Under the pieces are notes generated by a model. The model searched no databases. It was not told the origin of the DNA and saw only the letters and a program-made list of their open reading frames with translations. 64,000 nucleotides of DNA from Leptodontidium sp. MPI-SDFR-AT-0119 (Eukaryota; Ascomycota; Leotiomycetes; Helotiales; Leptodontidiaceae): NCBI GenBank assembly GCA_020726505.1, contig JAHLEZ010000021.1:124001-188000 (forward strand). Reading direction: 5' to 3'. The translations under genes and the position numbers were made by a program. Shown here piece after piece: positions 4,245 to 57,029 of this stretch. How positions within the stretch are numbered: position 1 is the first letter of the stretch; every line of letters starts with the position of its first letter.

Positions 4245-4555
4245 TGTTACGAACATACCAGTAGGGTATCACGTGTCTTGGCCCTGAGGCTCGGCAGCTT
4301 GGCTGCACAGAGAAGCCAAGACTAGGAGAGAATCATGGACACGGGTCACGTGGTTATTGGAGCTTTTGGAGCTTTAGGATCCCGGGCTCCTGGAGCCTGG
4401 GGTCGTGGGCTCCAGAAGGGATCGAAGGAGAACGAAGGTTCTATATAAGACTGGCACGTCTGCCATTAGATAGGAGCTTCGTGCTCAACTTCAAATAGTA
4501 TCTTACCTATACTAGTCCGTCAGTGTTTACAGCGAGTAAATACACGGCCGTTACA
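4245..4555. mobile_element. Solo LTR (311 bp) with 5-bp target duplication TGTAC
   Basis: Starts TGTTACGAAC and ends GGCCGTTACA, with TGTAC directly repeated at 4240-4244 and 4556-4560. A TATA-like TATATAAG lies at about 4442, followed by the R-like region. TG...CA ends plus a 5-bp duplication are the signature of an LTR retrotransposon that recombined down to one LTR (gypsy-like by its ends). It inserted within the family-2 NLR unit, so it is younger than that unit. Confidence 0.85.
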
Positions 4556-4560
4556 TGTAC

Positions 4561-5327
4561 ATTAGCCTAGTTATAATTTACTAAGTTCACTCCCATGGAC
4601 CGGCAGAAACGACTTTTAGCGTCTTCTCACTGTCGCTTAAATTAATATACCTTCTTCAAAGCAGCACAACATGTCCTTTAAATGTCTCTTTAGCTTTGCT
4701 ATTAAAGTACGAACATATTTCGAGGCAGCTGTAATTTTCTATGTAATTTTCTTTTTTCAAGTCAAAGTATTGAAGTCGATGCAGCCCTTTTACATTTTCG
4801 CGCTAAAAGTCGCAAGCGATGCCGGTCCATGGGATATTTCAAGTCTGGGCACGTGTGAAGCTATGGTGGTCACATGTGTGGCGTAAGTGCAAGTTTCTCG
4901 GAACATTCTATCGACGGGCGCTGGGTGTTGGAGCGCCCGTCTCTCGTCTCCTTGTACATCACCATTGCACCAGCAGGATAATCAGAGCCAGTCAAAGCCA
5001 AGCACGAGGTGTACCTCCTGGCGTGCCTAGATCGTTCCATGCTATGGAAACGTCCCCCATTCTACACTTTCATCTTTATCAGCACCGACCAGCAGCTCGG
5101 CCAAAATCGGCCGATAGCTTAGTAAGCTTCTACTGCTCGGCCCTAGTGGGGAGAAAAATGGCTGTGCGGGGTCATTACAACGGCGGTCGATTCTGAACCA
5201 GAAGTTAGAGATGTCTGATCTATTCTCTAGTGGCATCAATAGGTGTAAGTTAATGGCAGAACCGTGAGGAAGCCCTCGTGGCTTATCTAAATGTTCAGCC
5301 GCCTTCCCAGCCGGCCGAGTCTCTGCT
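4561..5327. other. Non-coding interval between solo LTR and 3' end of the NLR gene
   Basis: About 770 bp with no coding frame that I can support. The open frames here on both strands have no family features and overlap each other. The sequence belongs to the inside of the family-2 TIR unit, downstream of the NLR stop codon. Confidence 0.5.
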
Positions 5328-8300
5328 TCATAGACCTCGATTTTGCTGCCCAGGCTCTGTAAAATCATTTTGGCCTTCCTTCGACTCAGCAGACGCAACT
5401 TGCAACGCTTGAAGCCGATCTTCAAGTTGCTTACACCAGTTCGAAGAAGGTCCTTGGACAGTCGTGTATCCAGCCAACGCACGACTATACATTACCTTCG
5501 CCAAGTCTTTCCGACCTGTCCGCGAGAACAGGTCGCCAAAAGCAAACATAGCGCTCAACGCTGGTAAATATGAGGGTAGAAGTTCAGGACCAAGAGCGTG
5601 TTCGTAGCCTTGCAGCGCTCGAGTATACATCGCCTCCGCCTCCGTCAGCTTGCCTTGGTCGGCGTAGAGCAGGCCTAGGTTGCCGACCACTAAGAGTGTC
5701 GATGAGTGCTTCGGTCCCAGTGCCTCCTCGTAGCCTTGCAGCGCCCGAGTCAACATCGCCTCCGCCTCCGCCAGCTTGCCTCGGTTGAAGTAGAGCAGGC
5801 CTAGGTTGTTGACCGTATTGAGTGTCAATGTGTGCTTCGGTCCAAGTGCCTCCTCCTTGTCTTGCAGCGCCCGAGTCAACATCGCCTCCGCCTCCGCCAG
5901 CTTGCCTTGGTCGGCGTAGAGCAGGCCTAGGTTGCCGACCACTAAGAGTGTCGATGAGTGCTTCGGTCCCAGTGCCTCCTCGTAGCCTTGCAGCGCCCGA
6001 GTCAACATCGCCTCCGCCTCCGCCGGCTTGCCTTGGTCGGCGTAGAAATTGCCTAGGTTGCCGACCACTAAGAGTGTCGATGAGTGCTTCGGTCCAAGTG
6101 CCCCCTCGTAGCCTTGCAGTGCCCGACTATACATCTTCTCAGCCTCAGCCGGCTTGCCTTGGTCGGCGTAGAGCAGGCCTAGGTTATGGACCGTAGCGAG
6201 TGTCGATGTGTGCTTCGGTCCAAGTGCCTCCTCGTTACCTTGCCGCGCCCGAGTATACATCTCCTCCGCCTCCGCCAGCTTGCCTCGGTTGACGTAGAGC
6301 AGACCTAGGTTATTGACCGTAGCAAGTGTCGATGTGTGCTTCGGTCCAAGTTGCCCCTCGTAGCCTTGTAGCGCCCGAGTCAACATCGCCTCCGCCTCCG
6401 CCAGCTTGCCTTGGTCGAAGAAGAGCATGCCTAGGCTATGCAAAGCCCATTTCATTCCCCCCATACCCACCTTATCTTCAAGTATGGCCTGCTCTTGCCT
6501 GACAGCATGTTGAAGAAGTCGCCGTTGTAAGAGCCACCAGTGCGTCTCATCTGTATCAGGAACCTCCGAGGCCACACAGGTTAAGGCCAGACGTGCAAGG
6601 CTCTTGTCCCACTCCTTGTTAAGCACAAAAACTATCCATGAGTGGACACAACTATGCACACTATACCCTCTAGCCCCGACCTGCTGCTGAGACCTGTCTG
6701 GATCAACCAGTCCGAAAGTACATAGTAGAGTAATGGCCTCATTAAAGTTCAGTTCGTCCTTCGTAAGCTTCTGTATCCATTCATCGTCTACAGAGTTTGC
6801 ATGCCTAAGGAGGTCAAACCACAGGTCCTGTCGATCAAAATATGCCCACAGCTTGAGTAGTTTTGCTGATGCTGTATTCTGCTGTTGGATCCGATCTAAA
6901 GTGATCTGCCATGTCGTGTGTAGTGTACGATCTTCATAGGAATCCAACAGGGGACTTGTCATCTGAAGCTTCAACCATGATGTCTTATAGAGCTGAAGAT
7001 AATCCGAGAAGCTCGTCGTTACGTGCTCGAGATATACCCCTGCCGTAGATAGAGCAAGTGGTAGGCCGTCGAGTTCCTTGACAAGTGCTATAGCATTAGG
7101 ATCTGCCTTGTTAGTATTGTCTTTGCTCCCACTATCAATTATACCGACATACCATTTTCAATGCCCTTACGTCCTGACATGTTAGAAACAATCTCAAGAC
7201 CTTCCCTAATATCTGGCAGTTTCTGAACATGAATTCGTAAACCCTGCCTGACTTGCGACGACCGTGTTGTGATGATGATCGAGCCGTGATCAGACCGAGG
7301 GAGGAATTGACATATGTCGACTGCCGAGTTGTCGGGATTGCCAGACGTTTTAGGATTATCGAAGTTATCGTATATCATTAGCCATCTTGCGTTGTGTGGG
7401 GAGTCAAGCCAGCCCTTGACTACACTGACAACTTGATCGAGGTTTTTGTCGTGGTCTACGCTTGATAGCACACTTGTTGAAGGATGATGCCTTAACACCT
7501 GCTGAGCGACGTCCCGGAAGCTTAGCTTGAGAGAGTCTTCGTCATTCGCGTTCAACCAAAAGATCGCCGTGTACTTCTCCTTGTGTCGTCTGGCATATGT
7601 GATCGCCAGCTGGGTCTTCCCCATGCCCCCAAGACCATGTAGGACAACACAGGATCGATTACTGTGACCTTGAAGCAACTCGTGCATCCTCGACAGCTCC
7701 TTCTCTCTAGCAACAAACTGTGTAGCTTTAGGAAATGACACGAGGTCGAGCCCCACGGCAAATTGTTCGAAATCGACCCCTGTGCTGGTCAGTATCGTTG
7801 CTTCAGTTAATACATCCATGTAAACAACTTACCTTTGTACAGCTTGTGGATCTCATCCTCCAGTCGCCTAAATGCCTGGTCCTTTCTCTCCCCATAATTT
7901 GGCACTATAGACACATCGAAGATCCCGATTAAGCAGTACGCTGCATCTTCTTCAATAGTAGTATTCCGGCGCTCTGCCCAGGATCTGCGCTCTCTGATAC
8001 TAAAATTCGACAGTGCATCACCTCGGAGAGCTTTGTTTGCAATGCCGGTAATTTCGTATATCTGAGACTCAAGCGACAACTTGTTCCCTAGTCGCCCACC
8101 CTCCGAGCTAAAGAAGTCAACCAGCCTTGGTGCGATGAGCTCTTGAAGCGTCCAGCCTCGAGTGAACCAACGGCTATTCCTAAAGGCTTCCTCCCATGCC
8201 CTATGGTCATCCACCCCGTTGTCAGGCTTGGAGACATCGGAAAGGTAGACGTAGCAGCGCGCAGCGTTCTGATACCACCGAAACATGGAATTGATCGCCG

Positions 8301-8583
8301 CGCCAAGCTCGACCGCGTTCTTCTTATCGATGCAGCAGGTGTCCACCCAGAAGTATTCAAGCCCATCTACTGCGGCCCGCTTCGCGCAGAACTGTATCTT
8401 CCTCCATCCAGCCTTGTTCACAGTCTTGCTCTTGTCCTTGCTCTTCTTCAAGTTTTGATAGATGACCTCCTCTTCTCCCCAGGTATGAGAGAGTATTGCG
8501 TAGGCAGGGACTTCGCCGCTGGTAGGTTCGCGAAAGACGATCTCACCGTCGGGTTTGCGTTGCAAGAGGCGTATAAAAGACAT
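5328..8583 (-). CDS. NLR-A: HET / NB-ARC / TPR protein, three exons, apparently intact (1050 aa)
   Basis: Proposed CDS: complement(join(5328..7102,7153..7779,7833..8583)); both introns are GT-AG, 50 and 53 bp, and all phases agree. Exon 1 is a HET domain of the HET-E type (AILSHTWGEEEV, FWVDTCCIDK, EAFRNSRWFTRGWTLQELIAP, AAYCLIGIFDV). Exon 2 is an NB-ARC-type NTPase with P-loop VVLHGLGGMGKTQLA, Walker B-like RWLMIYDNFD and IIITTRSSQV. Exon 3 has the winged-helix-like region and seven 42-residue TPR (kinesin light chain type) units plus a degenerate eighth. HET domains trigger programmed cell death in heterokaryon incompatibility; the TPR array is the likely ligand sensor, the NTPase the oligomerisation switch. 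It lies alone inside a TIR unit. The near-identical repeats suggest concerted evolution. Start chosen because MSFIRLL directly precedes the HET motif. Confidence 0.85.
5570..6450 (-). repeat. 126-bp TPR repeat array inside NLR-A
   Basis: Seven tandem 126-bp units each encode 42 residues of the form NLGLLYADQGKLAEAEAM / LTRALQGYEEALGPKHSSTL. Several neighbours differ at only a few bases (for example the units around 5650-5800 and 5900-6060), so the array is homogenised at DNA level. Such arrays can change copy number by unequal exchange. Confidence 0.9.
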
Positions 8584-9330
8584 GCTGGAGGTTCGCGAGC
8601 GATCTCATAGCAGGCGCGACTCGTATCACCAACTCGGCAAATTGGTGCAAGCACTGCGATTTGAAGGTCGACAGGGTCCGAATCAGCTGTTAAAGGACTG
8701 ATAGAAGGAAGGATATGCCGTCGTGATCGTAGGCGCCGCGCCAACGAGGCTGCGTGGCGCAATCTGGCCAGCCACTTGCATGGCAAAGGCAAACAGAACG
8801 CGAAGGACGCTTCATTTTAGTGGAAACCTTACACACTACAGACTGGATTCTAGGACAAGTTGTTCCCTGTTGTTGAGATGTCGGCTTCTACAAAGTTGAA
8901 GAGCGGCAAGATGCTGTAGGTGGTGGTTAAGGGGACGGGACGGTTATGAAGGCATCCACGGTCGCTGAAAGAGGGACTGCTTCGCACAGGCCGCTTTTTG
9001 CTCAACTCGGAGGATGTCGGGAAACGGATTTAATAGTGCGCTCTGGCCGCCACAAACTGAGAATACCGTTTTAGCATGGTAATAAAACCTGGATATCTAT
9101 ATCTAATCGTTTTATGAGTTTAAAAGGTGGGAAAAGCTTGATGGTGGTGTTCGGAGTCGAGGGGTATATAGTGTCAAAGGAAGGTCCTCCGTAAATTCAA
9201 GGGGGCGGCGACGACGTGGTTATAATTTTCGGAATTGATAGGTCAGGAATGTTCGGGAGAGGTATAGAATACAACCAAAATAAAAATAAATAGAAATTTT
9301 TAGACGTTCACAGATTTTTAGTCGCTAGGT
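8584..9330. promoter_or_regulatory. Upstream region of NLR-A up to the right TIR
   Basis: About 750 bp between the NLR-A start and the inverted repeat. No gene is supported; the small frames here overlap the start of NLR-A or have no features. It must hold the promoter of NLR-A, and the whole upstream region lies within the putative element, so the gene would move with its own promoter. I cannot point to a specific TATA box. Confidence 0.4.
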
Positions 9331-9606
9331 TTTGTCTCGTTACAGGGTGCGTCTCGGCACGCAGGGACAGACGCAGAGAGAGACATTAGATAAATTGTGT
9401 GATGAGGCACAGTTCAGACAGGTGTAGTTCGCCCCGGTATCTACACGTGATCCGCCGGGTTACCATGCACGAACGGAGCCGACATCCAACATCCTCAAAA
9501 TAACATCCATCCCCCGAACCACTTCCTCCAAACAACATGCCTCGACTGACCTCCTCTAAACAATACCTCTCCCCCCTCCAGCCACTCACTCTCTCTCGTG
9601 CCATGG

Positions 9607-19230: not shown

Positions 19231-20725
19231 TCTTACGGATTCTCGTGGGTTAGTAGTATTGTTAGTAGGCTAGCTTGAAGGCAATTCTCCAAGTGTTCAG
19301 CATCCTATCTTCGGCAACTGAAGCGGTGCCTGCTGTCTGTGGCACGAGGTGATGGGTGTAGGTTTGGTCGGGTGTCGCGGGTTAGGTGCTCTGGCTCATC
19401 TGCAGTTGGTTTGCGTCGAGTCGGCCGGTGGCTATTGCGAACTGTATCGTTGCTCGAACGGCCTTCATGTTCGGAGTCCAGCCTTTGTCATCTGATGGCG
19501 ATTTCCCTCCTAAATAGAAGGAGATATTGCTTCTATGTGTATCTGTGCATTGAAGCATCTCTGCTCGATGCGCCGTCCATTGCCTGCATCGGCAGGCACA
19601 GAATTGCATTGCAAATCTACGGATAAACTACAATACAAGTAGGGCCAGCAACCTCCCTACCACGCTTTCCCGCAGGCCCGGTAAGACTATTGCCCCGAAA
19701 GGCTCACTCCTGGCCGCCTGCTTCGAGAGGAAGGTCCAGGACCAAAACCTTCCTCTACGCCCTCTGCCCTGTTTGCTCCTTAAGCCTGTATCAACGCGCA
19801 GCCCACTGCCCCGTTCTGCCTACAGACCGACACGCGCATCCGTCCTCTCAGGCCATATAGACAGTGTCTCTGTCGCTGCCATTATATGCCACGCCCCACG
19901 GCTGTGAACCGCTTCGCGTTACCTTGCCAGGTCTCCCCTCACAGCAAGGCCGACCGTGTCTCGCAGAGGTTGCCCTATTGTCCCTATACCCCTAGCCAGG
20001 CAGCATAGTATGGTGTTTCCCCTCTACTAACCAAAGTGTTGCTTCCTCTTCCCCGCCTGCTTTGCCAGTTCTCCCTCTCCCGCTAGCCTGTACTCCCATA
20101 TCCATAGTCTAAACCGCCAGCGCTCGCCAGAGCTGTAATTATAGAGCCGGGCCTGCCTCTGCAGTAGAGTTCCTCCGTACGGTGCTGTTAGGGACTCTGC
20201 CATTCGAGAGAGAGTATAACGGCTGTGTATCGTCCCCCTAGAATCCCCCCCTATAGCTACGCCTCTACCTCCCGCCGCTCAATATCCAGACTACAATACG
20301 TTCGTTTAACAAGAGCTCGTCAGATCGTTCGATTAACTAGAGCTTCGACGGGTCCTTCAGGTGACGTTCGACGCGCGCGCGCCGCCCATGCCCTCCAGCG
20401 AAAATTCTGCAATACACCCCAGAGGTGTCCTGTCGTACGACTAGGCATCGGTTCCACGTCGATATAATCGAGGGCCTGTACCCTAAGTCAGGTAATCGTA
20501 CGTCGGATGGTTTTCATACCCATTTTGATGGTAGTCCTCTGTTCTGATGTGGCCACGTCGCCGTCGCCAATGGAGGGGGACGAGGCCTCCACCGACGACC
20601 ACAACACCACAACAGCTCCATCGAATGCGCTTGTCTCCCGTTGGCTCTACGATAATATTACAATCATAGGTTCGTAGCCAGCACCACGGACAGGTGGGAG
20701 TTCGACTTTGCTGGCCCCAAGATTA
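19231..20725. other. 1.5 kb gap between LINE relic and TIR element
   Basis: C/T-rich sequence without a supported gene. The frame at 20225-20467 and a short stretch near 20640-20720 (decoding to WLYDNIT and DRWEFDFAGPKII in separate frames) could be transposon decay, but I cannot assign them. Confidence 0.35.
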
Positions 20726-20727
20726 TA

Positions 20728-20850
20728 CAGTCGCTAGCGAAATCGGCTTCCGCCCTGATCACTTCTGAAAATTTAAGGTAAGCCACATCGCCAAGACGCT
20801 TGTGCCAACACTAGAATGATTTTGGCTAGATCCTTCTATCCTGCATCCAC
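20728..20850 (+). repeat. Left terminal inverted repeat of the family-3 element
   Basis: Matches the right repeat at 25590-25707 in inverted orientation, with shared blocks such as GCTTCCGCCCTGA, CACTTCTGAAAATTT, AAGACGCTTGTGCC and CTTCTATCC. The outermost 31 bases are identical; similarity then fades inward. Confidence 0.8.
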
Positions 20851-21155
20851 CTAACTCGTAATTTTGATTGCTACGCTCCGGTCTATAGTACTGTACGATG
20901 ACTCGTACTTCTCTGAAGACCTCACCCGTTTTCGCGTGATTCGCCCTTGTTACACGCCAAAGCGCTATAAGCGTCTTGGCCACATCCCCCGGATCATCGT
21001 TGGTTTGCCCGCAGCCTGGCGACCCGCCTGAAATCACTGTTGTGGGGATACAGCTTCCGCGATCCCTTGCTCGAGCGCTATTTCATCAGATGCCTTAGAT
21101 CCACAGCAGATTCCAGTTACCCCGCTTTCCCTTGTCGGCTTCCCTAGCGACAGGG

Positions 21156-24100
21156 ATGGCGGAGCCTCTTGGGCTTGCCGCAAGCGTTATCGCGGTTGTT
21201 GAATTGTCCGCAAAGGTTGCGTCACTATGCTTTGAGTACTACACCAAGGTCAAGAATGCCAGAGACGACATCGCACGCCTTCGAAGGGAAGCCGAGGGAT
21301 TAAATGTCATCCTCAAACAGGTTCAGTCGCTGTTGAATGGTCCAAATGGTGCGAAACTCGAGGCATCCCGGACCTTGCGCAATGGGGTCGATGACTGCTT
21401 CTCGCAGCTCGCTGACCTGGAGACAAAGTTGGAGCCAAGAAGAAGACACAAGGTGATGAGACGTTTTGGAGTTCGCGCCTTGAAATGGCCTTTCACGAAT
21501 GAAGATGTGGAGGGCATTGTGAAGGACCTTGGAAGATATAAGGACATGATATCTCTCGGTCTCCAAGTTGACCAGACGTGCGTGACATCGTGCACATTCT
21601 CTATAGAGCGGAAACTAACAATTGTGTCTATAGGGCCCTAGTTCTTGACGTCCATCAAGAGATCGTTCTTGCCAAACTCCGTGTCGCCGAAGGCGCCGCG
21701 TTCGACTCCCACGCCGACGAACACGACCCTAGATGCCACCCAGACACTCGAGTTGACCTTCTTCACCAGATTGACAATTGGGCCGGCGATCCAGACAGCG
21801 AATGTATATTCTGGCTGAATGGCATGGCTGGTACTGGCAAGTCTACAATCTCCCGCACAGTGGCCCACAACTTCGCCGACAAGGGGGAGCTCGGCGCTAG
21901 TTTCTTCTATAAGAGGGGCGAAGGCGACCGTGGCCACGCAGCGTTGTTCTTCACTACGATTACTGCTCAGCTCGTCCACAAGCTACCCTCCTTAGCACCG
22001 CACGTCCGGACTGCGATCGAGACCGACCCGGCTATCTGTGGGAAGACTATGAAGGACCAGTTCGAGAAACTCGTCTTAAAGCCTTTGGACAAGATACATA
22101 GCGATCCTCGGAATTCTTTGAGTATAGTGGTAGTGGTTGATGCCCTCGACGAGTGCGACCGGGAAGAGGACGTCAGGATCATAATTCACCTCCTCTCACA
22201 AGTGAGGCACTTAAAATCGATGCGCCTCAAGTTATTTGTGACAAGCAGGCCAGAGCTGCCGATTCGCCTCGGCTTCGAGGACATAAGCGGCAAGTATAAA
22301 GGTATGGTTCTCCATCAGATTCCTAACCCCATTATCGAGCATGACATCTCCGCGTTCCTGGAATACGAGCTGGCAAGAATCCGAGATGATTACAACAAAT
22401 CAGTGACACGAGATCGACAACTACTCTTGGGTTGGCCAGGCCAAACAAGTGTCCAAAGTTTAGTCGGAATGGCCATCCCTTTGTTCATTTTTGCTGCAAC
22501 CGTCTGCCGGTTCATCAAGGACCGGAAATGCGGTCCACCAGAGGAACAACTTGCCAAGATCCTCAAATATCAAACCAGAAGCCAGGAATCCAAGCTTGAC
22601 GCAACGTATCTCCCAGTCCTAAACCAGTTACTTCTCGGGCTTACTGCTTCGGAGAGACACCATCTAGTAAGAGAATTCCGGGAGGTCGTCGGCTCGATCG
22701 TTATTCTCGCCAGCCCCCTCTCCACCGCTTCCCTGGCTCGACTATTAGGGATCTCCAAAGGAGCAGTCGACTGCAGAATAGATCTACTCCACTCAGTTTT
22801 GAGCATCCCTTCTAATCCAGATGTTCCAGTACGACTACTCCACCTGTCGTTCCGGGACTTCCTCCTCGACTCTGAGAAGCGCGAGTCGAACCCCTTCTGG
22901 GTCGACGAGAAAGAGGCCCACAACAAGTTGGCTACCCAATGCCTCGAACGCTTGTCTGCGGGCGGCAGCCTCAAGAAAGATATCTGCAATCTTCGGACGC
23001 CAGGGATGCTACAGACAGAGGTCGACAAGGAAACGATAGATGCATGCCTTCCGTCAGACGTCCAATATGCTTGCCAGTATTGGGTCTATCATTTAAAGCA
23101 GGGCGGAGGCATTATATACGACGACCACCAAGTCTATAGTTTTCTCAAGCGTCACTTCCTCCATTGGCTTGAAGCATTGAGCCTCATCGGGAGGTTATCA
23201 GAAAGCGTCGGCATGATTGACAACTTGGTGGCCATGGTAGAAGTACGTCACTCACTAATACCAAGAACGAGCATCTACTAAAATATGGTCATTAAGCCCG
23301 TCACAAGCACCAAACTATCTGAGTTCCTTCACGACGCGAAGCGTTTTGTCCTCAGATACCGCTCAATAGCTGACTCGTCGCCCCTCCAGCTCTACTCTTC
23401 CGCACTTATTTTTACCCCGGAACTAAGCGTTATTCGAAATACATTCCAGAACTGTATACCTGCTTGGATTTCACAGCAGCCAAAGGTGGATTTGGATTGG
23501 AATGCTGTTTTGTTAACGCTCGAGGGCCATAGCGATTTAGTCACGTCGGTAGCATTCTCGCACGACTCGAAGCTGCTGGCGTCAGCATCGGACGACGGCA
23601 CAGTCAAGATCTGGGACGCTGCAACCGGCTCGCTGCAGCAGACGCTCGAAGGCCATAGCAGTTCAGTCAGGTCAGTAGCATTCTCGCACAACTCGAAGCT
23701 GCTAGCGTCAGCATCGCGCGATGGCACAGTCAAGATCTGGGACGCCGTAACCGGCTCGCTCCAGCAGACGCTCGAAGGCCATAGCGATTGGGTCACGTCG
23801 GTAGCATTCTCGCACGACTCGAAGCTGCTAGCGTCAGCACCGGACGATGGCACAGTCAAGATCTGGGACGCCACAACCGGCTCGCTCCAGCAGACGCTCA
23901 AGGACCATAGCGGTTCAGTCAACTCGGTAGCATTATCGCACGACTCGAAGCTACTAGCGTCAGCATCGGACGATAGCACAGTCAAGGTCTGGGACGCCGC
24001 AACCGGCTCGCTGCAGCAGACGCTCGAGGGCCATAGCGGTTCAGTCAGCTCAGTAGCATTCTCGCACGACTCGAAGCTGCTGGCCTCAGCATCGGACGAT

Positions 24101-25225
24101 AGCACAGTCAAGATCTGGGACGCCGTAACCGGCTCGCTCCAGCAGACGCTCGAAGGCCATAGCGATTGGGTCACGTCGGTAGCATTCTCGCACGACTCGA
24201 AGCTGCTAGCGTCAGCATCGCGCAATAGCAAAGTCAAGGTCTGGGACGCCGCAACCGGCTCCCTCCAGCAGACGCTCAAGGACCATAGCAATTCAGTCTG
24301 GTCAGTAGCATTCTCGCACAACTCGAAGCTGCTAGCGTTAGCATCGGGCGATAGCACAGCCAAGATCTGGGACGCCGCAACCGGCTCGCTCGAGCAGACG
24401 CTCGAGAGCCATAGCGATTTGGTCACGTTGGTAGAATTCTCGCACGATTCGAAGCTGCTGGCCTCAGCATCGGACGATGGCACAACCAAGATCTGGGACG
24501 CCACAACCGGCTCGCTGCAGCAGACGCTCGAAGGCCAAAGCCAGTCGGTAGCATTCTCGCACGACTCGAAGCTGCTGGCGTCAGCACCGGACGATAGCAC
24601 AGTCAAGATCTGGGACGCCACAACCGGCTTGCTGCAGCAGACGCTCGAAGGCCATAGCAGGCTAGTCACATCGGTAGCATTCTCGCACGACTCGAAGCTG
24701 CTGGCCTCAGCATCGTGCGATGGAACAGTCAAGATCTGGGACGCCGCAACCGGCTCCTTGCAGCAGACGCTCGAAGGCCATTGCGATTGGGTCACGTCGG
24801 TAGCATTCTCGCACGACTCGAAGCTGCTGGCGTTAGCATCGGGCGTTAGCACAGTCAAGATCTGCGACGCCGCAACCGGTTCTTGCCGCCAAACAATTAC
24901 AACTAACGCTTATATTACGAGATTATCATTTGATAGTGGGAACTCAAACCTTTTTACAAACATTGGTCGTATAAAGGTGGATGGACCTGTTCTGCCTACT
25001 GCGTCTGAATCTTCTCAAGAGGCAGGCGGTAAAGGCGATCGCCAAGGATGGGGCGTCAGCGGGTCGTGGGCCACGTGTAACGAACAGAACTTGCTCTGGT
25101 TGCCTCCCAGCTACCGGACCGCCGTGTTTGCTATTTCGCCGTCAGGATCGAGAGTCGCTTTCGGCTCTTATACTGGGAGGGTATTTGTTATCGGATTCTC
25201 ATCGGCCATTTCACACATCGCCTAG
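21156..25225 (+). CDS. NLR-B: N-terminal STAND domain / NACHT / WD40, three exons, apparently intact (1319 aa)
   Basis: Proposed CDS: join(21156..21577,21634..23242,23297..25225), GT-AG introns of 56 and 54 bp, phases consistent. Residues 1-140 (MAEPLGLAASVIAVVELSAK...) resemble the fungal N-terminal domain of STAND proteins, a helical HeLo-like signalling domain. Then NACHT: P-loop WLNGMAGTGKSTISRTVA, Walker B VVVDALDECD, and LFVTSRPELPIR. The C-terminus has eleven WD40 units (LEGHSDLVTSVAFSHDSK / LLASASDDGTVKIWDAATGS type), the ninth shortened, then a closing region found in other NWD proteins. Family members control non-self recognition; the repeat disc is the variable sensor. Unlike NLR-C, no amyloid motif is visible at its N-terminus. 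Internal repeats are nearly identical at DNA level. Confidence 0.85.
23515..24893 (+). repeat. WD40 repeat array of NLR-B (126-bp units)
   Basis: Eleven tandem units of 126 bp (the ninth shorter, lacking the H..V.. start of the blade). Variation is concentrated in the residues just after LEGH and in the DDGT/DDST turn, while the rest is nearly invariant, as in the NWD family where these positions form the binding face. Confidence 0.9.
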
Positions 25226-25589
25226 ACTGCTATCGTAATTCTGCATAACGAAGCTGCTTAGATCATTTATATTTCCTTTGATAGCTAGTTTACAGAGGAT
25301 CTTAAGGGACGTATTGTTTTAAGCTATCTTTATGACTTTATTCTCGTGAACGTTCTGCTTCTTCTCCTGACCTCTCTCTGACTGAGGGTTGGCATGATTT
25401 AGCTTTGACAGGCCGCTATTCCTTAAAATCTCATAAAAAAATTATAGACTTATACAAAGATTTTAAAGTGATTGAATTAACTTGCCCGGTATTCGGCTTT
25501 AGGAAAGCGAAGGACCGAATCTAGAGTTGAGTAATATACCAGATCGCGAACAGGCCAATAATTGTTTCGGATGAAGCTTAGCAAGGAGA
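25226..25589. other. 3' flank of NLR-B inside the element
   Basis: About 360 bp between the stop codon and the right TIR, A/T-rich, without a gene. It probably includes the polyadenylation region. Confidence 0.4.
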
Positions 25590-25884
25590 TGCAGGGATAG
25601 AAGCAGCTAGCCAGAATCAATCTAGTGTCGGCACAAGCGTCTTGATAAGGTGGCTTTCCGAAATTTTCAGAAGTGTTCAGGGCGGAAGCCGATTTCGCTA
25701 GCGACTGTACATTGGTTTTTTTACAAACAAAAGCAAGGGTGAAGGGTGAGGACTGTATGTTGGCGAGAAGCAACTGTATACATTCAGGACTACGATTTCG
25801 AACCCTGCGTAGCACGACTAGATCAATGGCCGTTCCGGCCAACGGAGAGCCCGATGGGTCGCCCGATGGGCCGCCCAGCAGTTC

Positions 25885-27811: not shown

Positions 27812-27816
27812 GTCTA

Positions 27817-28362
27817 ACGTCCCTCCCTGCGTGCCGAGAAACCCTACGTGCCGAGAAAAACATAAGATACTTTGACTTTATTCATTCTCAACTCCACACC
27901 AGCTTATTAATTTATAAAAATAAAAAATCTGTAGTATTACACAGCTATGTATTATCAATTTGATACCTTCCGAAGAAAATTTTATTATCGCATCGCCGCT
28001 CTTTTGCCTGATTTATAAGAAGCCTCCATTTATGCTTTAGTACGAGCCCTCAACCACTGCTACACTGGCAAGCTCTTATTATCCATTACACGTCTTAAAA
28101 GATCTTGTCTGAGCTTTAGATCCATTTTTTTTTAATCCGAGACCTTCATAAGCTTTGTGGCTGCCGTAGCGCGCATATCGTTGCAGGGCCGCCACGCGGT
28201 TCGGTACTTCTGATCGACGGAATGAACGATTCTCGGCTAGGGGAACCGACCCCGCGCCTCCCCTCGGTAGTTTCGCCGCAATTCCGCTTATATAACCAGT
28301 AGGGAAGCTTGGGGCTTCAAACGTGAGGCAGTAGCATCGAACGCAATGCCTTGTCCACACAG
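27817..28362 (+). repeat. Family-1 long TIR, left orientation
   Basis: Begins ACGTCCCTCCC, then two 17-bp units (CCTGCGTGCCGAGAAAC type), and continues for about 540 bp. It is the inverted match of 45655-46152, 60437-60965 and 39296-39769, and the direct match of 37404-37880. Conserved inner blocks are GAGACCTTCATAAGCTTTGT, GGCCGCCACGCGGTTCGGTA and the closing TTCCGCTTATATAA, which may be a TATA element. Confidence 0.85.
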
Positions 28363-28939: not shown

Positions 28940-30736
28940 TCAATACATCCGCGCCACTGGTGCCCTCCAAGGCGCGGGCTCTAGTTGTGGCTCTTTCTGT
29001 GGTTCTGGCTGTGGTTCTGGCTCTGCTTCCGGCTCCCGTGCCTCTACCGCAGTACCTCTACGCCTGCGGATACGAGTGCCCTTGCCCTTTTTCACCTTCC
29101 TACTACTCACCACTTTCACTTCCACTTCCACTTCAGACTCTAGCTCTGCCTCACTTGCCTCTAGCTCTGTATTCTTACGCTTCTGACCACGATTTCCCTT
29201 GCGTTTGGTAGCGTCTTTCGCAGCACGCTTTGCTCGTGCTTCCTCGATGTCCTCATAACTCATAACTTTCGCTTTCCCCAAAACCACTGACCTGGTCGAT
29301 CTGCGAACTTTGGCTTCATTGTTTGCCTCGGTCAAGAATTGATTTCGATTGTTGAGGAGGGCACATTCGGCAAACGATACTTGAGCCGCATTTGCAAGCT
29401 TCTGCACACGCTTTTGTAGGCGCTGTGTGCTTGTCGCATCGAGATTTTGGGTATCCTGTTTGATTTGGTCACACAGCGACATGAGACCCTCCGCTGACAC
29501 AGGCGTTACAGGTGTTTGTACAGCTTCATATTGTAGATGAGCAGCCGCTTTCTTTGCATCGATTTCTGGACCGTTCGGTTGGGTAGGAGGCTTCGGTGTA
29601 TTTCTGAGTACTCTGTCTGGGTTATCCGGAAACAAACCACATGCTGCCCACGCAGATGTGATGTTCCTCTTCGTGAACGCTTTCTCCCTCGCAAAGCTGT
29701 ATAAAGAGGTGAAATGTTCCTTGCCGACGGCATTAGTACCTCCTTGGAACAGCCGTTCAACTCGTTCTCGATAGGCTGCCTTTAAAGGTGCAAAGGGTCC
29801 GACATCACAAGGCTGGAGCTTGTGTGAGGTATGAGATGGTAGACGACACAACTTAATGTTGTTTTCTAGGCAGAACTCCAAGATTTCAAGGCTCTCGTGT
29901 GTCCCAAAGCCGTCACAAATTAATACGCGTGGTTTCTGATTTGCACGTCCTTTTGTCTGTGGATCAAACACACGCTTGAGCCACTCAAAGCTGATCTTAG
30001 AATCAGTGTATCCAGATTCGGAGCATGCATAGTGCCATCCAGGAGTAGGGAACGTAGTCCAGTTGCTACGATGGGTAACAGCTGGCCAGATGATCATTGG
30101 CAACAAAGACCTACCGTCTGCACTTATACATTCGATGGCAGTCACCATCGTCCGCTTGACCCCGGCGCCTCTATAGTCTCGCGGGTCATCCTTACTGATT
30201 AGGACTTTGACAGAGCCGAGCATGCAGAGCATAACTCCCGTCTCGTCCATATTGTAAACATTCTCTGGCAGAATAGCTGGATCCCGCAATACCTTTCCGA
30301 TCACATCGAACCAATGTATAATCTTGTCATATATGTTGTTCTCGTGACGCTTCCAGTCTATCGCCCTCACTCTTCGTGATTTGAGTGCCGGGTGACGCGT
30401 TACGAAGCCCTGAGCCCAATTCTTGCCGGGAGGATTGATCGGTTTCTCAGTCGTCGAACGTTGGCGGGCGATGACAAAGGCTAGGGAGGGTACGAACTTG
30501 ATCCGCACAGGGTTTCCGAGGTCGGATATCCCTTTGAGATACTTTTCGAGAGCTTTCTCTTCGGATGGAGTGAGGTATTGTTGGCTCTGGGCCTTCTGTT
30601 CTTTCGAGCGTCGCCCTTGCGCACGATGATGGAGGGTAGAGAGAGGGACTCCACTGCGTTTTGATCTGGCATCGTAAGTTCGAGACTCACCCGGTAGAAA
30701 GCCTTCTGCAAGGACTTCACTGGCACGGTCGTTCAT
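28940..30736 (-). CDS. Fot1/pogo-type DDE transposase (598 aa), intact frame
   Basis: A continuous 598-codon ORF. The N-terminal ~120 residues hold a Psq-type helix-turn-helix (RSGVPLSTLHHRAQGR) and CENP-B-like DNA-binding half (WAQGFVTRHPALKSRRVRAID). The DDE core follows with YNMDETG (first D), VLICDGFGTHESLEILEFC (second D) and HKLQPCDVGPFAPLKAAYR (third D), then SAWAACGLFPDNPDRVL and a basic tail rich in K/R/E. These are the diagnostic blocks of fungal pogo/Fot1 transposases. Its own TIRs could not be found with confidence, so element limits are not given. Because the nearby family-1 and family-3 units also use TA sites, this enzyme or a relative is a candidate for mobilising them, which is inference. 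Confidence 0.9.
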   Translation of the reverse strand: MNDRASEVLAEGFLPGESRTYDARSKRSGVPLSTLHHRAQGRRSKEQKAQSQQYLTPSEEKALEKYLKGISDLGNPVRIKFVPSLAFVIARQRSTTEKPINPPGKNWAQGFVTRHPALKSRRVRAIDWKRHENNIYDKIIHWFDVIGKVLRDPAILPENVYNMDETGVMLCMLGSVKVLISKDDPRDYRGAGVKRTMVTAIECISADGRSLLPMIIWPAVTHRSNWTTFPTPGWHYACSESGYTDSKISFEWLKRVFDPQTKGRANQKPRVLICDGFGTHESLEILEFCLENNIKLCRLPSHTSHKLQPCDVGPFAPLKAAYRERVERLFQGGTNAVGKEHFTSLYSFAREKAFTKRNITSAWAACGLFPDNPDRVLRNTPKPPTQPNGPEIDAKKAAAHLQYEAVQTPVTPVSAEGLMSLCDQIKQDTQNLDATSTQRLQKRVQKLANAAQVSFAECALLNNRNQFLTEANNEAKVRRSTRSVVLGKAKVMSYEDIEEARAKRAAKDATKRKGNRGQKRKNTELEASEAELESEVEVEVKVVSSRKVKKGKGTRIRRRRGTAVEAREPEAEPEPQPEPQKEPQLEPAPWRAPVARMY

Positions 30737-30924
30737 GACGTGGTGGTGACAATGCCAGCGATGGGACGGGATGGATGGTGGAATGGCAGCTGCACAGAGC
30801 TGAAGCAGTCAGCAGTCAGTAGTCACGTGACTACACATGAAGCCTTCTAGAAAAAACGCTTCACCCCGCAGCCACACTGCTAAGTTAAGCTCCGCAGCCC
30901 ACCACATCTCACACCAAATGGATG

Positions 30925-38560: not shown

Positions 38561-39783
38561 CGGTGGGATGAGCAGTGTTTTGCCGAGAAGCGAGGCGCGC
38601 GGATGTGTTTGGCAGTGCGTCCGGTAGCGACTGTATGCGATTGGAAACTGTGGGTTGTAAACAATTTTGTGCTGAGATTGATGATGACGATGATCAGGAG
38701 GAATATTTTCAGAACAGAAATGGGAAGTGAGAAAGTAAGCGAGTTAGAGCTGAGGCTAGAGCTGAGGATGCGGATGGAGAACAGGGGAAGGGAGGGAAGG
38801 AGGAGGGCGTCATTACTAGCTCACGAAGTCGTCGTGATGTCCAGACATCCCAGTCGCCTCGAGTGTTGCATGAGTCTACTCGGTTCGTCAGTGAGTCCTG
38901 ATCTCAGAACAAACAAGCAAGCAAGCAAGAATGGGAAATTGGAGAGAAGCCGGCTTACGGACTAGCACAGCGTTCTCCGTCGCGATGTTATAGAGGTCGC
39001 CTGAAAGCTTCAGTATTACAGCTGATGGTGGTGGCGGTGTCGTCATCGTCTCGATCCCGTAAGATTATCCTCTTGAATCGATGGAAAGTATTTCGATAAT
39101 TTGAAATTACTGGTTTGTATGCCAGAGAGCCTTTATGTGCGAAGGACGACGAGATTTCGGGGTTAGGTGTGTTAGCATGTGATGTGTGACTAGTGAGTCA
39201 CATGATGAGTCACATAAGGAGGTGGCATTTCTACCTAATTTGCAGTACTGTGGACTACTGCTGCCTGTCGTTCAGATGCTCTACATAAGCATCAATAGCT
39301 GTAACTTACCCAAAGCTTTGTGGGACATGCGGGTTAGTTCCTCCTAGCCGAGAATCGTTAGCTCCGTCGATCAGAAGTACCGAACCGCGTAGTGGCCCTG
39401 CAATTATTTGCGCGCCACAGCAGCCACAAAGCTTATGAAGGTCTCGGATAAAAAATTTATAGATCTGAAGCTCAGATCAAGAACTTTTAAGACGTGTTAG
39501 GGGCAATGAGAGCTTGATATTGTGGTTGTGGTAGAGGGGTTTTATTAGAGCCTAAATTAAGGCTTCATATTAATCGGGCGAAAGAGCGACGATGCGAATA
39601 GAAAATTCTCCTCTAAAGGTGTCAAATTGCTACTGAATAGCTATAGAATGCTCCTGATGTTTTATTTTTTGTAGACCCATAAGCTGGTGTGGAGTTGAGA
39701 ATGCGTAAAGTCAAAGTACCTGATGATTTTCTCGGCACGCAGGGTTTCTCGGCACGTAGGGAGGGACGTTATTTGTTCTTTAT

Positions 39784-40441
39784 TTATCTAGAGTACTGCG
39801 TAATAGATATTCCTGCGTGACGGAAATGATTCTCTGCAATATGTTCATCGTCACCTACCACGTCGACGCACCACTCCAAAAACATTTTGAACTCCCTTGC
39901 AATGAAATCCTCGTTTTCGTGCCACTTTTTCTTGATGAACTTCTTGAGTACGCCAAAGTACTCCTCAATAGGATTGAAGTCAGGCGAGTACGGTGGGAGG
40001 AACTCCAATACTACTCCTGCGTCCCGACACATCTGCACGATCTTTTCTGAATGGTGCCAGGATGCGTTGTCCATTACGATGACAGATTTTGGCTCTGGGT
40101 ATCTGCCACAGTGATGTAACAACTGGGCAATGAAGTCCTCAAACAAATCACAGTCTGTTGATCCTTGGTATACTCGCCTTAGCATGATGCCATCTTGCGC
40201 GTATGCTGGAAGAATGTGCCATCTTTTCCCGCGACCGAACTTTGTGACTTGGATTGGAGATGAACCCTTCCTTTAGCAAGGCGTTGATTAAAATATGCTG
40301 TGCAGCATTCAGTTGTGGCGGCATGTTTGCTGGCAAAAATGGATGACGGGAAAGAAGTGGAGGGAAGGAGTGACGGGAGAGAAGGGTTGCCAGCCAATTC
40401 TGTCTCTGCAAGGGCAGAAATACCTCCAGGTACACACACAA
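39784..40441 (-). pseudogene. Tc1-type transposase, internally deleted
   Basis: The minus strand encodes the first ~22 residues of a Tc1-like transposase (MPPQLNAAQHILINALLKEG) and, from 40190 down, its C-terminal DDE_3 end (SVIVMDNASWHHSEKIVQMC, PPYSPDFNPIEEYFGVLKKFIK, with the second D and the final E). The paired DNA-binding domains and the first catalytic D are deleted; the join is near 40190-40265. It is a non-coding relic. Its stop lies only 14 bp outside the end of the 37404-39769 element. Confidence 0.8.
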
Positions 40442-40580
40442 TTTATTACGCCCGGCGGCTGAGCCGAGAGGGCAACTATCACTGATCTACTAATACATTT
40501 CCCAAGAATTGCCCTAGTCTCCTTCGAGCCCATACAGAGTTCATTTCTAGCCTATGTTGTTTCTTGCGGATTCTCCAGGT
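40433..40580 (-). repeat. Copy of Tad-type LINE 5' leader
   Basis: Nearly identical to 19088-19230 (shared AATTTATTACGCCCGGCGGC, GAGAGGGCAACTATCACT, AGAGTTCATTTCTAGCCTAT). Only the leader is present and ORF1 does not follow. It abuts the Tc1 relic on one side and a family-3 TIR on the other. Confidence 0.8.
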
Positions 40581-40581
40581 A

Positions 40582-40625
40582 CAGTCGCTTGCAAAATCGG
40601 CGTCGCGTCTTTTTGCTGAAAAGAA
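40582..40625 (+). repeat. Family-3-like TIR end
   Basis: TA at 40580-40581 is followed by CAGTCGCTTGCAAAATCGGC and a diverged continuation, matching the ends of the 20728-25707 element. A second weak copy of the same motif lies near 40787-40815. No inverted partner was found nearby, so it is a solitary end. Confidence 0.55.
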
Positions 40626-41196
40626 ATGTGAGCACAGACCACCTCCGCCATTTTTGGCTGATGCCGGAACGGGCCGCCTCCGCAAACGGTTGCTGCATGG
40701 CATCTGAACGCACTAGTCCCGGATACTTGGAAACTGGGGAACTGACTAGGGAGACAACACTGAACCTTCGCATCTCATAAAGTCGCATGCAAAGTAAAGT
40801 CGGCTTTCGCCCTCTTTCGCTCAGAAAAGTTGTGAGCACAGAGCACCTTTTGCATTTTAGCGCTAGCGCTGTAGCGCCTTGTAATTTAGTGCTCTCTGAA
40901 GCAATTACAGTAAGCAACCTTGGATGAAAAGTTTCCGTACAGTACATACAGAGCAGGCTGGCTTTAGCCGAGCAAAAGATGTGGGTTATTCACGTTACGG
41001 CCTCCTCACGTGAGTACTCGAGAGCGAGATAGTAATGACAAATACACTATAGTGCATAGAAGATTCTAGATGTAGAGTAACAATCATTGATATCTATAAA
41101 ATCAAACGCTCCCCTAAGACTCTCTACAAAATAGAGATACAAAAAAAAAGAGAGATATTACATAGTGACTAAAAAGACATTGTTAGTTAATCTGTA

Positions 41197-44100
41197 CTAG
41201 TTCTGTATTATTAACTTTGCTCCAAGTGCGAAACGAAAGACTAAAACTCTCCCAGATGAATACCCAAAGACAAAACTTCCGTTCCAAGTAGCGTGACAAG
41301 TGGGTGATTGAAAATCAGGAGTTAGCCAGAGAATTTTTGATATCCCTTTTAGTACCCAACCATCTGATACTCGTAAAGTTTCTAGCTTGCTGTCGGGTGA
41401 GAAGGCCACGGACGTGACCTCGTCCGTATGGCCTTCGAGCGTTTGCTGCAAGGCTCCTGTAGCGGTGTCCCAGAGCCGCACCGTCTTGTCGTTAGAGCTA
41501 GACACGACCCGCTTGCTGTCAGGTGAGAAGGCCACGGACGCGACCCAGTCCGTATGGCCTTCAAGCGTCAGCTGCAGGGCTCCTGTAGTGGTGTCCCAGA
41601 GCCGCACAGTCTCGTCGTTAGAGCCAGACACGACCCGCTTGCTGTCAGGTGAGAAGGCCACGGACGTGACCCGGTCCGTATGGCCCTCAAGCGTCAGCCG
41701 CAAGGCTCCTGTAGTGGTGTCCCAGAGCCGCACCGTCTTGTCGCCAGAGCCAGACACGACCTGCTTGCTGTCGGGTGAGAAGGCCACGGACCCGACCCAG
41801 TCCGTATGGCCCTTGAGCGTTTGCTGCAAGGCTCCTGTAGCGGTGTCCCAGAGCCGCACCGTCTCGTCGCCAGAGCCAGACACGACCTGCTTGCTGTCGG
41901 GTGAGAAGGCCACGGACCCGACCCAGTCCGTATGGCCCTTGAGCGTTTGCTGCAAGGCTCCTGTAGCGGTGTCCCAGAGCCGCACCGTCTTGTCATTAGA
42001 GCTAGACACGACCTGCTTGCTGTCAGGTGAGAAGGCCACGGACCTGACCTCGTCAGTATGGCCCTCGAGCGTCAGCTGCAGGGCTCCTGTAGCGGTGTCC
42101 CAGAGCCGCACCGTCTTGTCGTTAGAGCCAGACACGACCTGCTTGCTGTCGGGTGAGAAGGCCACGGACGTGACCTCGTTAGTATGGCCCTCGAGCGTCA
42201 GCTGCAGGGCTCCTGTAGCGGTATCCCAAAGCCGCACCATCTTGTCGTCAGAGCCAAACACAACCTGCTTCCTATCGGGTGAGAAGGCCATGGACCTGAC
42301 CCAGTCCGTATGGCCTTTGAGCATCTGCTGCAGGGCTCCCGTAGCGAGCGTCTGCTGCAGGGCTCCTGTAGCGGTATCCCAAAGCCGCACCATCTTGTCG
42401 TCAGAGCCAAACACAACCTGCTTCCTATCGGGTGAGAAGGCCATGGACCTGACCCAGTCCGTATGGCCTTTGAGCATCTGCTGCAGGGCTCCCGTAGCGA
42501 GCGTCTGCTGCAGGGCTCCTGTAGCGGTGTCCCAGAGCCGCACCGTCTCGTCGTTAGAGCTAGACACGACCCGCTTGCTGTCAGGTGAGAAGGCCACGGA
42601 CGTGACCCGGTCCGTATGGCCTTCAAGCGTCAGCCGCAAGGCTCCTGTAGTGGTGTCCCAGAGCCGCACCGTCTTGTCGCCAGAGCCAGACACGACCTGC
42701 TTGCTGTCAGGTGAGAAGGCCACGGACGTGACCCGGTCCGTATGGCCCTCGAGCGCCTGTAGTGTTGCGTTCCAATGTGTTTCTACTTTAGGCTTTCTCT
42801 GGATCCAAGACGGAATACAGCCCTCGAACGTTTCTCGAACAATGCTCTTCTCTGGGGCGAAGATAAGAGCCGAGCAATATGCTTGAAGAGGCGCCTGTTC
42901 AATAATTGATCGGTTGGATACGGCAAACCGCCTCGCATCATGTATAAAATCATGTAAATCAGGACTTTCATCGAGCTGGTTGATTTTAGCAACTGTCTTC
43001 AGTACTAAGAAGAGACAAAAAAATTAAAACGTACCAGAAGATCTTCTAGCTTCTTGATCATAACTACGCCTTTTGACACGCTTTTCAACAGGCTCAGCGC
43101 CTCAAGCCAATACAAGAAGTACTGACGGAGGAAAGTATAAACAAAGCCATTGTCCTTGAGGTCCTTGATTGTATCCTTTCTTGTTTGACACTCGAGTAGA
43201 TGGTCAACCCAGTAAAGACAAGAGTACTGCAAGGCGACGAGAGGATCAAGATAAGGCTGCTCGACTTGGTCGATAGAAATTCCGGGAGCGCGTAATCCGT
43301 AGATATCACGTCGAAGTGTGTTTGACATAGCTAGCACCGACCGTGAGAAGATAGTATAATGTACATCATCTATGCCTAAGGGCAAGATCTCTTTAGTTGC
43401 CTTCTTCAACAAGAAATCCTTTGCTGATTAGTGGACGAAAGAGATAGTGTTTTCGCGAAGTGATAGAAAAGAGCCACACAGTGATATAATATCTGCCAGA
43501 GACTTATAATCATTGGCAATATCAACGAGCGTCTCGATAATAGAGGTGATTTCCATGAGAGTAATTGGTCGATATACCGTTGATACAATAGCCAGAATCT
43601 GCTTATAGAGATCTGCATCGTCTGATTCGCAGATTTGGTCCAACATCCGCTAGTAAAGCAAATCAAGGCCAGGAGGAAATTCCTTCAACTTCGCTAAAGT
43701 CTTCTATCGTGGCACATTCTTCAAATTTTCGTACACCAAAGCGACCCAGAGGAAAGTATCATCCGCATTTGATACTAGATGCTGCAGGACGGCTTCGCGG
43801 GTTCTATCGTCGTAGCCCTTTTCGTCCGCCAGCTGACGTGTCTTGTACTTGACATAAGTGCCAACAGCCGCGGAGACGGACTTCAGGTTCAGCTCGAGAC
43901 ATAATCTCATCTTGTGTCCAGCCCGCTCTAGTTGTTCTTCAATGTCCGGCCAATTGCGGCTAGAGACCACCCACTTAACACGAGGAGATATAGACGACTT
44001 CTGGACGATAAATTCCAATAACTTTGACCGATCTACTATACATTCGTCAAGCGCATCGATGATCAAGAAAGTGCTTCTTAAGCTCGGGTCTTGCAATATG

Positions 44101-45263
44101 CTTGTGAAGATCTCAGACAACGCAATCCAGGCATTCATATCTTCGAAGAGGGATTTACCAGCGTGATCGTGCTTCTTCTGAATGTGCGAGATGAGCGATG
44201 GCTGTTGATTGACGAGCAAGTACAACAGCCCTCGCAGGACAGCCGTTGCGTGGTTGATTCGCGAGTCCGTAGCCTGGCAAAAAAAATAGGATAGTATATC
44301 TGTCTTCAACATTGATTTCTCCAGCTCGTTGATGATGCCGCAGAGCAGCATTGTTTTCCCCTTGCCGGGATCGCCCTTGATCCATAGCAGTCGGCTTTGC
44401 TGATCGTCACGCCACTGTTGAAAGTCGGAGGTCTCTAGGACCCAGTTATATGAGCCCTCTAGCAAGCCACCCTTGGTGTCCTCAATACGCGTCTTGTCAT
44501 CGCGGGGATCGCTGAGGCGTAGGTCTTGGAGGCACTTGTTAAACTTGTCGATTTCCTCTTCGAGCCGTTTGAATGCATTCGCCATCCCTTCGCCATAACG
44601 GAGGGGCATTTGGACGTCAAAAATGCCGAGTAACGAGTACGCTTTGTCTTCTTCAACTTTTGTCTGGCGGGGTTGAATCCATGAAAATCGCTCCTTTTCG
44701 CTAAACTGCGACAAAAAGGCACCTTGAAGTGCCGACTTAGGGATGCCTGTGATCTCGTGAATTTGCTGCTCTAGAGAACTCTTACTACCAATCCGCTTGG
44801 ACTCCCGGCAGAAGAATTCAACTGATGTCGGAGCAATAAGCTCTTGAAGGGTCCAGCCTCGAGTGAACCATTTGGATTTCCGAAATGCCAAGTCCCAGGC
44901 CAAGTCATCAGTGTTAGCGACAGTCCCCGACACATCTGACAGATAAACGTAACATTTGGTCGACAGGCGGTACCAGTGAAACATAGAGTTGATAGCTTCT
45001 GCAAGCTCAGCGCCGTTTGTTTTGTCGATGCAGCAGGTGTCCACCCAAAAGTATTGCAAGCCATCACGCAAAGCCTGTTCTGCGCAGAACCTTATCTTCC
45101 CGTAACCAGCCTTCTCCGTGCCGGTTCCAGTCTGCAGATCTTCAAAGGTGACCTCCTCCCCTTCCCATGTGTGCGAAAGAATAGCATATTTCTTGGGTAT
45201 ATCGCCTTCAAAGAACTCGGTCAGGCTGAAATCGCCATCGTTGTTGTATTGTAGCAGACGCAT
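41197..45263 (-). pseudogene. NLR-E: HET / NACHT / WD40, full length but with three nonsense codons
   Basis: From ATG 45263: HET domain (AILSHTWEGEEV, YFWVDTCCIDK, RKSKWFTRGWTLQELIAP, AYSLLGIFDV), NACHT with P-loop LLWIKGDPGKGKTMLL and Walker B LIIDALDEC, and after an intron at about 42996-43034 a C-terminal array of ten to eleven WD40 units to the stop at 41197. In-frame stops lie at 43704-43706 (TAG), 43650-43652 (TAG) and 43428-43430 (TAA), each one C-to-T change from CAG or CAA; frame and domain order are otherwise preserved. This HET/NACHT/WD40 order is that of the Podospora HET-E/HET-D proteins. It lies directly inside the right family-1 TIR. The stops fit RIP; unless they are bypassed, the gene is dead. 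Confidence 0.85.
41390..42765 (-). repeat. WD40 array of NLR-E with a 10-codon slippage insert
   Basis: Units of 126 bp of the type LEGHTDRVTSVAFSPDSK / QVVSGSGDKTVRLWDTTTGA. Two units carry an additional TLATGALQQM segment, each followed by an almost identical MLKGHTDWVRSMAFSPDRK unit; the sequence 42190-42340 is repeated at 42350-42500, so a 156-bp block was duplicated after the small insertion arose. Confidence 0.85.
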
Positions 45264-45654
45264 TGTTCGACTAGGTTCGAGGATGGTAAAGAGGAGGGTT
45301 CTCGGTAGTAGTTGAGCCGTCGAGTTGGCATAGATGCGAAGGGTGAAGAGTTCATGTCAGGTTGAGGCTGGCGCACTCAGCTGAGCGGCAGCCTCGCGGT
45401 AATAGCATTGTCGTACATGACTGGCAGCGCGCAAGACCGGCCCAGTCGCTCAGGCTCACCGGCGAAGTTAATCTCGATTGACAATAACGTATTCTTGTTG
45501 CTGAGAGGGAAGCTAAAGAAATCTGGGAATTGAATGATAGAAAAATAAATCTGGACCCAGAAACCCCTCGATCATCCATCCATTGTCAATTTCTAGCCTT
45601 AGGTCTTAGGCTGACATTTATTACGTAAGCTATGGCGAAACTAACTTACGGCGA
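45264..45654 (-). promoter_or_regulatory. 5' leader of NLR-E, shared with NLR-F and the 37404 element
   Basis: This ~390-bp segment between the HET ATG and the long TIR is conserved in NLR-F (30925-31278, plus strand) and in part at 37925-38100. It contains frames that continue upstream of the ATG without a clear purpose. The TIR edge sits where the promoter of the gene would be expected, so transcription of the NLR probably starts in or near the TIR. Confidence 0.55.
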
Positions 45655-56851: not shown

Positions 56852-57029
56852 ATCCTGAAGCACCTCCCGCAAAGCTTTGGGACAGGAGTACGAAAGGTAC
56901 TTCCGTACTTTCGCCCTAACTCCGCTTATATAAAGAACTATGTGAACAAGGGATTGCGTTACATGCTACCACTGACCTGATATTGTTGCTAATAGTGAAG
57001 GCATCACGTCAAGAGCCACAAGCTTGCCT

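Follow-up and report, generated by a model that had tools for sequence, protein, structure and literature searches.

An NLR gene as the likely cargo of a small cut-and-paste transposon in Leptodontidium

In the genome of the ascomycete Leptodontidium sp. MPI-SDFR-AT-0119, NOD-like receptor (NLR) genes are the cargo of a transposon family with terminal inverted repeats (TIRs). The member considered here is a 4,980-bp element at positions 20728-25707 of the window, by which we mean the whole 64,000-nucleotide stretch of contig JAHLEZ010000021.1 that was analyzed (positions 124,001 to 188,000 of the forward strand). We judge it probable, at roughly four chances in five, that this element is a transposon copy without a transposase, that an NLR is its sole gene, and that it was put into a TA site by cut-and-paste transposition with the transposase of its relatives. 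More generally, it is likely that such receptors are carried around as cargo of small cut-and-paste transposons.

The window element and its receptor gene

A reading of the window made from its letters alone (the sequence-only reading) had described here a TIR element with TA flanks that encloses a lone intact three-exon NLR gene and no transposase. This description stands: the arms align over 120 bp, TA is present on both sides (Table 1), and neither the transposase nor the accessory open reading frame (ORF) of the element family, both introduced below, has a tblastn match within the element. A 20-mer of the TIR end matches the window at three places with at most three mismatches, as compared to 0.00 expected from 100 shuffles. 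The predicted gene, whose exon borders were picked from GT-AG and reading frame alone, begins with an ATG at 21156 and encodes 1319 residues with no internal stop. Its N-terminal domain, NTPase with a Walker A motif (GMAGTGKS) and WD40 units identify it as a fungal NLR of the NACHT-WD40 type with the layout PigL_N-NACHT-WD40. The WD40 units between 23516 and 24882 are on average about 75% identical in pairwise comparison and, position 1 aside, variability within the 42-residue unit is highest at positions 6, 9, 10, 12 and 28; such variable positions are the pattern of WD40 repeats under diversification.

The DNA to the left of the element is itself a repeat (20528-20717, compared in L065, L066 and L068) which stops about 10 bp before the TIR. 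One genomic copy, at C25:72348, likewise breaks off immediately ahead of a CAGT-type end, and a further two break off ahead of TACAGTAGCT.

Table 1. Coordinates of the window element, of a second family end in the window and of the genes in the most complete family copy, L069 (window positions unless L069 is named)
Feature	Position	Strand	Basis
Left TA target-site copy	20726..20727	.	direct reading of flanks
Left TIR	20728..20847	+	107/120 identical to right arm; genome matches
NLR exon 1, PigL_N-type N-terminal domain	21156..21577	+	PF17111, E 5.4e-11
NLR exon 2, NACHT-type NTPase (NPHP3_N/NACHT)	21634..23242	+	PF24883, E 2e-30; PF05729, 1.1e-05 (below its cut-off); Walker A
NLR exon 3, 11 WD40 units, stop at 25223-25225	23297..25225	+	PF00400, 11 stretches
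Right TIR	25588..25707	-	107/120 identical to left arm
Right TA target-site copy	25708..25709	.	direct reading of flanks
TIR end of second family member, TA-flanked	40582..40601	+	40579-41199 resembles the L054 end at 88.6%
HET-NACHT-WD40 genes beside the end at 40582	41197..45356	-	
Fragment related to family transposase, immediately beyond the 40582 end	39796..40266	-	59% identity over 157 aa
L069, accessory ORF	L069:1186-2466	+	open frame
L069, transposase	L069:2497-3684	-	open frame
L069, SesA-NACHT	L069:3762-5828	+	open frame
L069, WD40	L069:5800-7845	+	open frame

Family ends, their cargo and empty sites

Throughout the 77-Mb genome the 20-base TIR end has 255 matches with at most three mismatches (129 forward and 126 reverse), compared to 36 (22 and 14) for a reversed-pattern control. 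One hundred of the 255 were used as listed places for the neighbor and cargo counts, and where two of these ends are adjacent within 10.5 kb they face inward in 22 cases, outward in four and in the same direction in five. We read 21 of the 22 inward pairs (the window element and L038-L057; the pair C69:429343-433545 was left out). The right end of L048 lies outside the stretch examined, L047 has a second left end 160 bp internal to the one used, and L069 was added later as a further element. The TA flanks of the window copy recur in its relatives: each of the 21 elements for which both ends were available has TA on either side. Family members range from 1.4 to 10 kb, and most copies read are without a transposase. 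Short members include L038 (1.9 kb) and L055 (1.4 kb; C56:3046131-3047526); in the latter, which has the window element's type of TIR, a 191-residue cysteine-containing frame with no Pfam match replaces the NLR. In seven of the 21 (L039, L040, L041, L043, L045, L046 and L050), the two ends are alike over 22-34 bp only, and most of these elements apparently combine ends from different subfamilies.

As NLRs and repeats may merely share regions, we counted matches separately on the inner and outer sides of each end. NACHT matches lie within 5 kb on the inner side of 25 of 100 ends and on the outer side of two, as compared to about one expected at random; when TPR matches are also counted, the numbers are 38 and seven. 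Seen from the receptor genes, 17 of the 150 listed NACHT places (150 of 157 matches, sampled from 331 candidates) have an inward-facing listed end at most 5 kb away. The sequence-only reading had proposed a search for other copies with different cargo, and these exist: 14 of the 17 elements scanned against Pfam hold an NLR, HET or PigL_N domain or an NLR-type repeat array. Besides the PigL_N-NACHT-WD40 of the window element, the domains are HET (L039, L051), HET-NACHT (L040), HET and NACHT (L042), NACHT (L043, L044), HET, NACHT and ankyrin (L045), PigL_N (L047), TPR together with a retroelement (L048), HET and TPR (L049), TPR (L053), SesA-NACHT (L054), and NB-ARC (just below the cut-off) with TPR (L057). 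In the five elements outside the scan (L046, L050, L052, L056 and L069), ORFs were judged by eye to be of HET, TPR or NACHT types, and L046, L052 and L069 include genome-wide TPR or NACHT matches.

At C1:6798850 the empty counterpart of L049 matches the left flank at 99 of 100 bases, has one TA, and matches the right flank at 20 of 20 up to an indel, beyond which similarity resumes. L038 sits in a short repeat, and 18 of its 50 joined-flank matches span the junction by at least 40 bp on each side; the four such copies examined are 97-98% identical over 145-148 bp, gapless, and have one TA. As no NLR is recognized in L038, its empty sites speak for the family's ends, while that of L049, with its HET and TPR genes, speaks for the cargo. 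Inside the window itself there are further paralogous empty sites, weaker at 75-76%, for L049 and L039; when 20 elements were compared with the loci examined, these two gave such a site. The joined flanks of most elements have no spanning match among the examined loci, i.e., their surroundings differ.

A candidate transposase and the competing explanations

Beyond what the sequence-only reading had observed, some family members additionally encode a transposase, which lies inside TIR pairs in L044, L054 and L069 and is an open frame in two of them. In L044 (8,070 bp) it is a DDE_3 transposase (E 3.8e-31) whose open frame has 324 residues counted from the conserved start MAPNLA; the opposite strand bears a NACHT-WD40 gene. 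The most complete copy is L069 (7,955 bp; Table 1). L054 contains the accessory ORF, an NLR and a transposase frame with eight stops, and in L070 a left TIR resembling that of the window element is accompanied by an NLR, an open transposase frame and the accessory ORF. The latter adjoins the transposase in L054, L069 and L070. This ORF (P0003 in L069) has a conserved RCPGPPCN-x-GP-x-CW motif, and 32 of its relatives gave no Pfam match. In all 13 aligned transposase proteins D216, D300 and E335 are invariant, and by this spacing the enzyme is of the Tc1/IS630-like DD34E type. Merging every one of the 106 transposase search rows gives 97 loci; a listed NACHT or TPR match lies within 6 kb of 12 of the 24 loci with at least 44% transposase identity, as compared to three of the 73 weaker ones. 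Database relatives number 2,111 for the transposase and 456 for the accessory ORF, the named ones among the 120 listed for each being ascomycetes; in Colletotrichum truncatum, relatives of the two have the neighboring tags CTRU02_215634 and CTRU02_215633.

Other transposase genes within family loci were set aside. P0001 in L043 was rejected as the family transposase since it belongs to a nested Tc1 element with different ends and near-identical copies elsewhere; this element encodes an open 359-residue transposase and exists in five near-identical copies, among them those on C19, C67, C8 and C16, so it has probably been active recently. The pogo-type DDE_1 gene of L056 is in a region bounded by its own 97-nt inverted repeats, and that of L062 adjoins sequence common to L013.

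It is plausible that complete copies would supply a transposase for the TIRs of members without one, such as the window element. The latter may stem from a transposase-bearing ancestor, or its NLR may have been captured between two family ends. In such a capture two ends from different elements, one left and one right, would be mobilized jointly with the gene between them, and the seven elements with ends alike over short distances, seemingly from different subfamilies, suggest cargo capture by the ends of neighboring elements. Each move would carry a receptor along with its own regulatory DNA, for the window NLR a putative promoter and terminator, and the family could thereby redistribute and diversify fungal non-self receptors.

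Several observations weigh against this reading. The sequence-only reading had it that the NLR is moved as a gene cassette, which the empty sites of sister elements and the varied cargo bear out for the family; for the window copy, movement is what we infer, as 28 genome matches to its flanks, once joined, included no empty site, the left-hand repeat stopping short of the TIR, and no second genomic copy with its cargo was found. With about 11% divergence between its arms, the element may be old. Both fully bounded copies with an open transposase have ends of another subtype than those of the window element, and the right end of L070, whose left end does resemble them, was not found in 12.6 kb. 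In three members (L038, L041 and L055) the Pfam scan of the ORFs detected neither an NLR nor a HET domain, and the lists of DDE_1 and Tc1-like transposases show no enrichment inside family ends.

If the elements are mobile and the transposase of L044, L054, L069 and L070 is itself a passenger, then a different enzyme moves the family. Nested elements with their own ends do occur inside members (the Tc1 in L043, the pogo-type in L056), and the transposase was seen in no more than three elements of which both ends were available. We nevertheless regard this as unlikely: no inverted repeat other than the family TIR was found in L044 and L069, and L054 adds to it only a 52-bp piece that also matches the TIR. 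Moreover, the transposase and the accessory ORF are adjacent in three copies, and proximity to NLRs is seen for close relatives of the transposase and not for distant ones.

It is quite improbable that the ends bracket the NLR by chance, as two short, independent TIR elements flanking it in a transposon-rich region without ever having moved it. NLRs and repeats do occupy common regions in the window, short members such as L055 and L038 exist, and in a third of the 21 elements the ends match only briefly, all of which such bracketing would accommodate. What it leaves unexplained is the excess of inward- over outward-facing neighbors, the ratio of 25 to 2 for NACHT on the inner and outer sides, the 120 bp over which the window arms match, and the empty site of L049, which shows the joint entry of ends and genes into one TA. 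Spread of NLRs with their flanking repeats by segmental duplication or gene conversion, without transposition, is barely credible. Duplications that include ends do occur, since L062 and L013 have in common an end and the DNA outside it, and the sequence-only reading had named a larger segmental duplication among the findings that would overturn it. Duplication would not account for inward-facing ends, for TA on both sides of every element with both ends available, for single-TA empty sites, or for the different surroundings of most elements; for L049 and L038 it is hard to hold. Cut-and-paste transposition of the ends together with the genes between them is the explanation we prefer.

Related repeats, possible spread and known systems

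A second TIR family, with ends ACGTCTGTCCCTRCGTNNCGAGACGC, has 95 genome matches compared to none in the control, and its neighbor pairs face inward in 14 cases and outward in two. A NACHT, TPR or top-150 HET match lies within 5 kb inside 20 of the 95 ends and outside three, while for NACHT alone the numbers (6 inside, 2 outside) do not differ significantly. Window 3847-9373 is a member of this family and encloses HET and TPR frames. L074 (C25:123347) and L049 (C32:255528) are copies of one repeat whose corresponding TA is occupied by a CAGT-type element in one copy and by a second-family end in the other.

Elsewhere in the window, no partner was found for the CAGT-family end at 40582-40601. 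Between inverted repeats of 450 bp that are 82% alike (27815-28262 and 39322-39771) lie disrupted HET and NACHT frames and, at 28940-30808, a pogo-type DDE_1 gene with an open frame. C14 has a further copy of the DDE_1 region, at 89%, and the gene, traced to two other loci, was set aside as having no connection to CAGT-type ends. A third inverted-repeat pair (56903-60490; 36 nt, 86%, 3.5 kb apart) surrounds a HET frame at 59516-60484.

The receptor of L069 is 89% identical over 97% to a protein of Trichoglossum hirsutum (Geoglossomycetes) and 83-84% to those of named Helotiales (Acephala, Cadophora), with other database sequences at 86-88%; this pattern of protein similarity would fit horizontal transfer. 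A hint of spread is also provided by a 95% transposase relative and an 82% receptor relative that are on contigs of equal size, 320,307. We would offer only tentatively the wider idea that NLRs are a standing part of a Tc1/IS630-type lineage, consisting of transposase, accessory ORF and NLR with shared TIRs. Part of the receptor repertoire of this fungus, and perhaps of many ascomycetes, might then be a population of transposons that exchange receptors between their ends, create a new incompatibility locus wherever they insert and cross from one fungal class to another. The growth of fungal NLR repertoires, their variation among strains and their reshuffling are usually explained by gene duplication, by clustering and by giant Starships. 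With its candidate transposase, its empty sites and its many NLR layouts, the small transposon family provides a direct and testable route in which receptors jump with their own DNA. On this view TA sites should vary in the presence or absence of elements, new incompatibility genes should arise, and receptors may also spread horizontally.

CAGT-type ends are typical of Tc1/mariner (IS630) elements. The family shares with those of ascomycetes the TA target duplication, the TIRs and ends of this type and, in some members though not in the window copy, a DDE_3 transposase with DD34E; it differs from the usual Tc1/mariner element in its size, its NLR or HET cargo, its accessory ORF and the absence of a transposase from most copies. 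A hAT transposon of Pseudocercospora fijiensis, in which a captured histone H3 gene was multiplied, is also a small fungal DNA transposon with a host gene (PMC6710886). It is of another superfamily, however, and is described as carrying a housekeeping gene in copies mostly inactivated by repeat-induced point mutation, whereas the family here has many receptor types and open frames.

NLRs are reported within Starships, which are likewise mobile fungal elements with NACHT or HET cargo (PMC12134995, PMC9594970). As portrayed in the available parts of these papers, Starships are giant, are moved by a DUF3435 tyrosine recombinase and carry many cargo genes, whereas the elements here are small, hold one receptor each and have a TA target; the Pfam scans of the ORFs of 17 members list no DUF3435, for which no genome search was made. 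The HNWD genes of Podospora resemble the window NLR in their HET-NACHT-WD40 or NACHT-WD40 layout and similar WD40 units (PMC1805685, PMC12222747); the accessible sections of these two papers mention no inverted repeats, and one pseudogene adjoins a transposon relic. Work on NLRs of Podospora and Sordariales touches transposons only in passing in the sections available (PMC1805685, PMC12258605, PMC12222747). No small TIR transposon with NLR cargo was found in the literature searched, the coverage of which leaves out most subscription papers and preprints. We file the family under a known kind, the gene-carrying Tc1/IS630-type transposon, and what is new in it is an immune-type receptor as the usual cargo.

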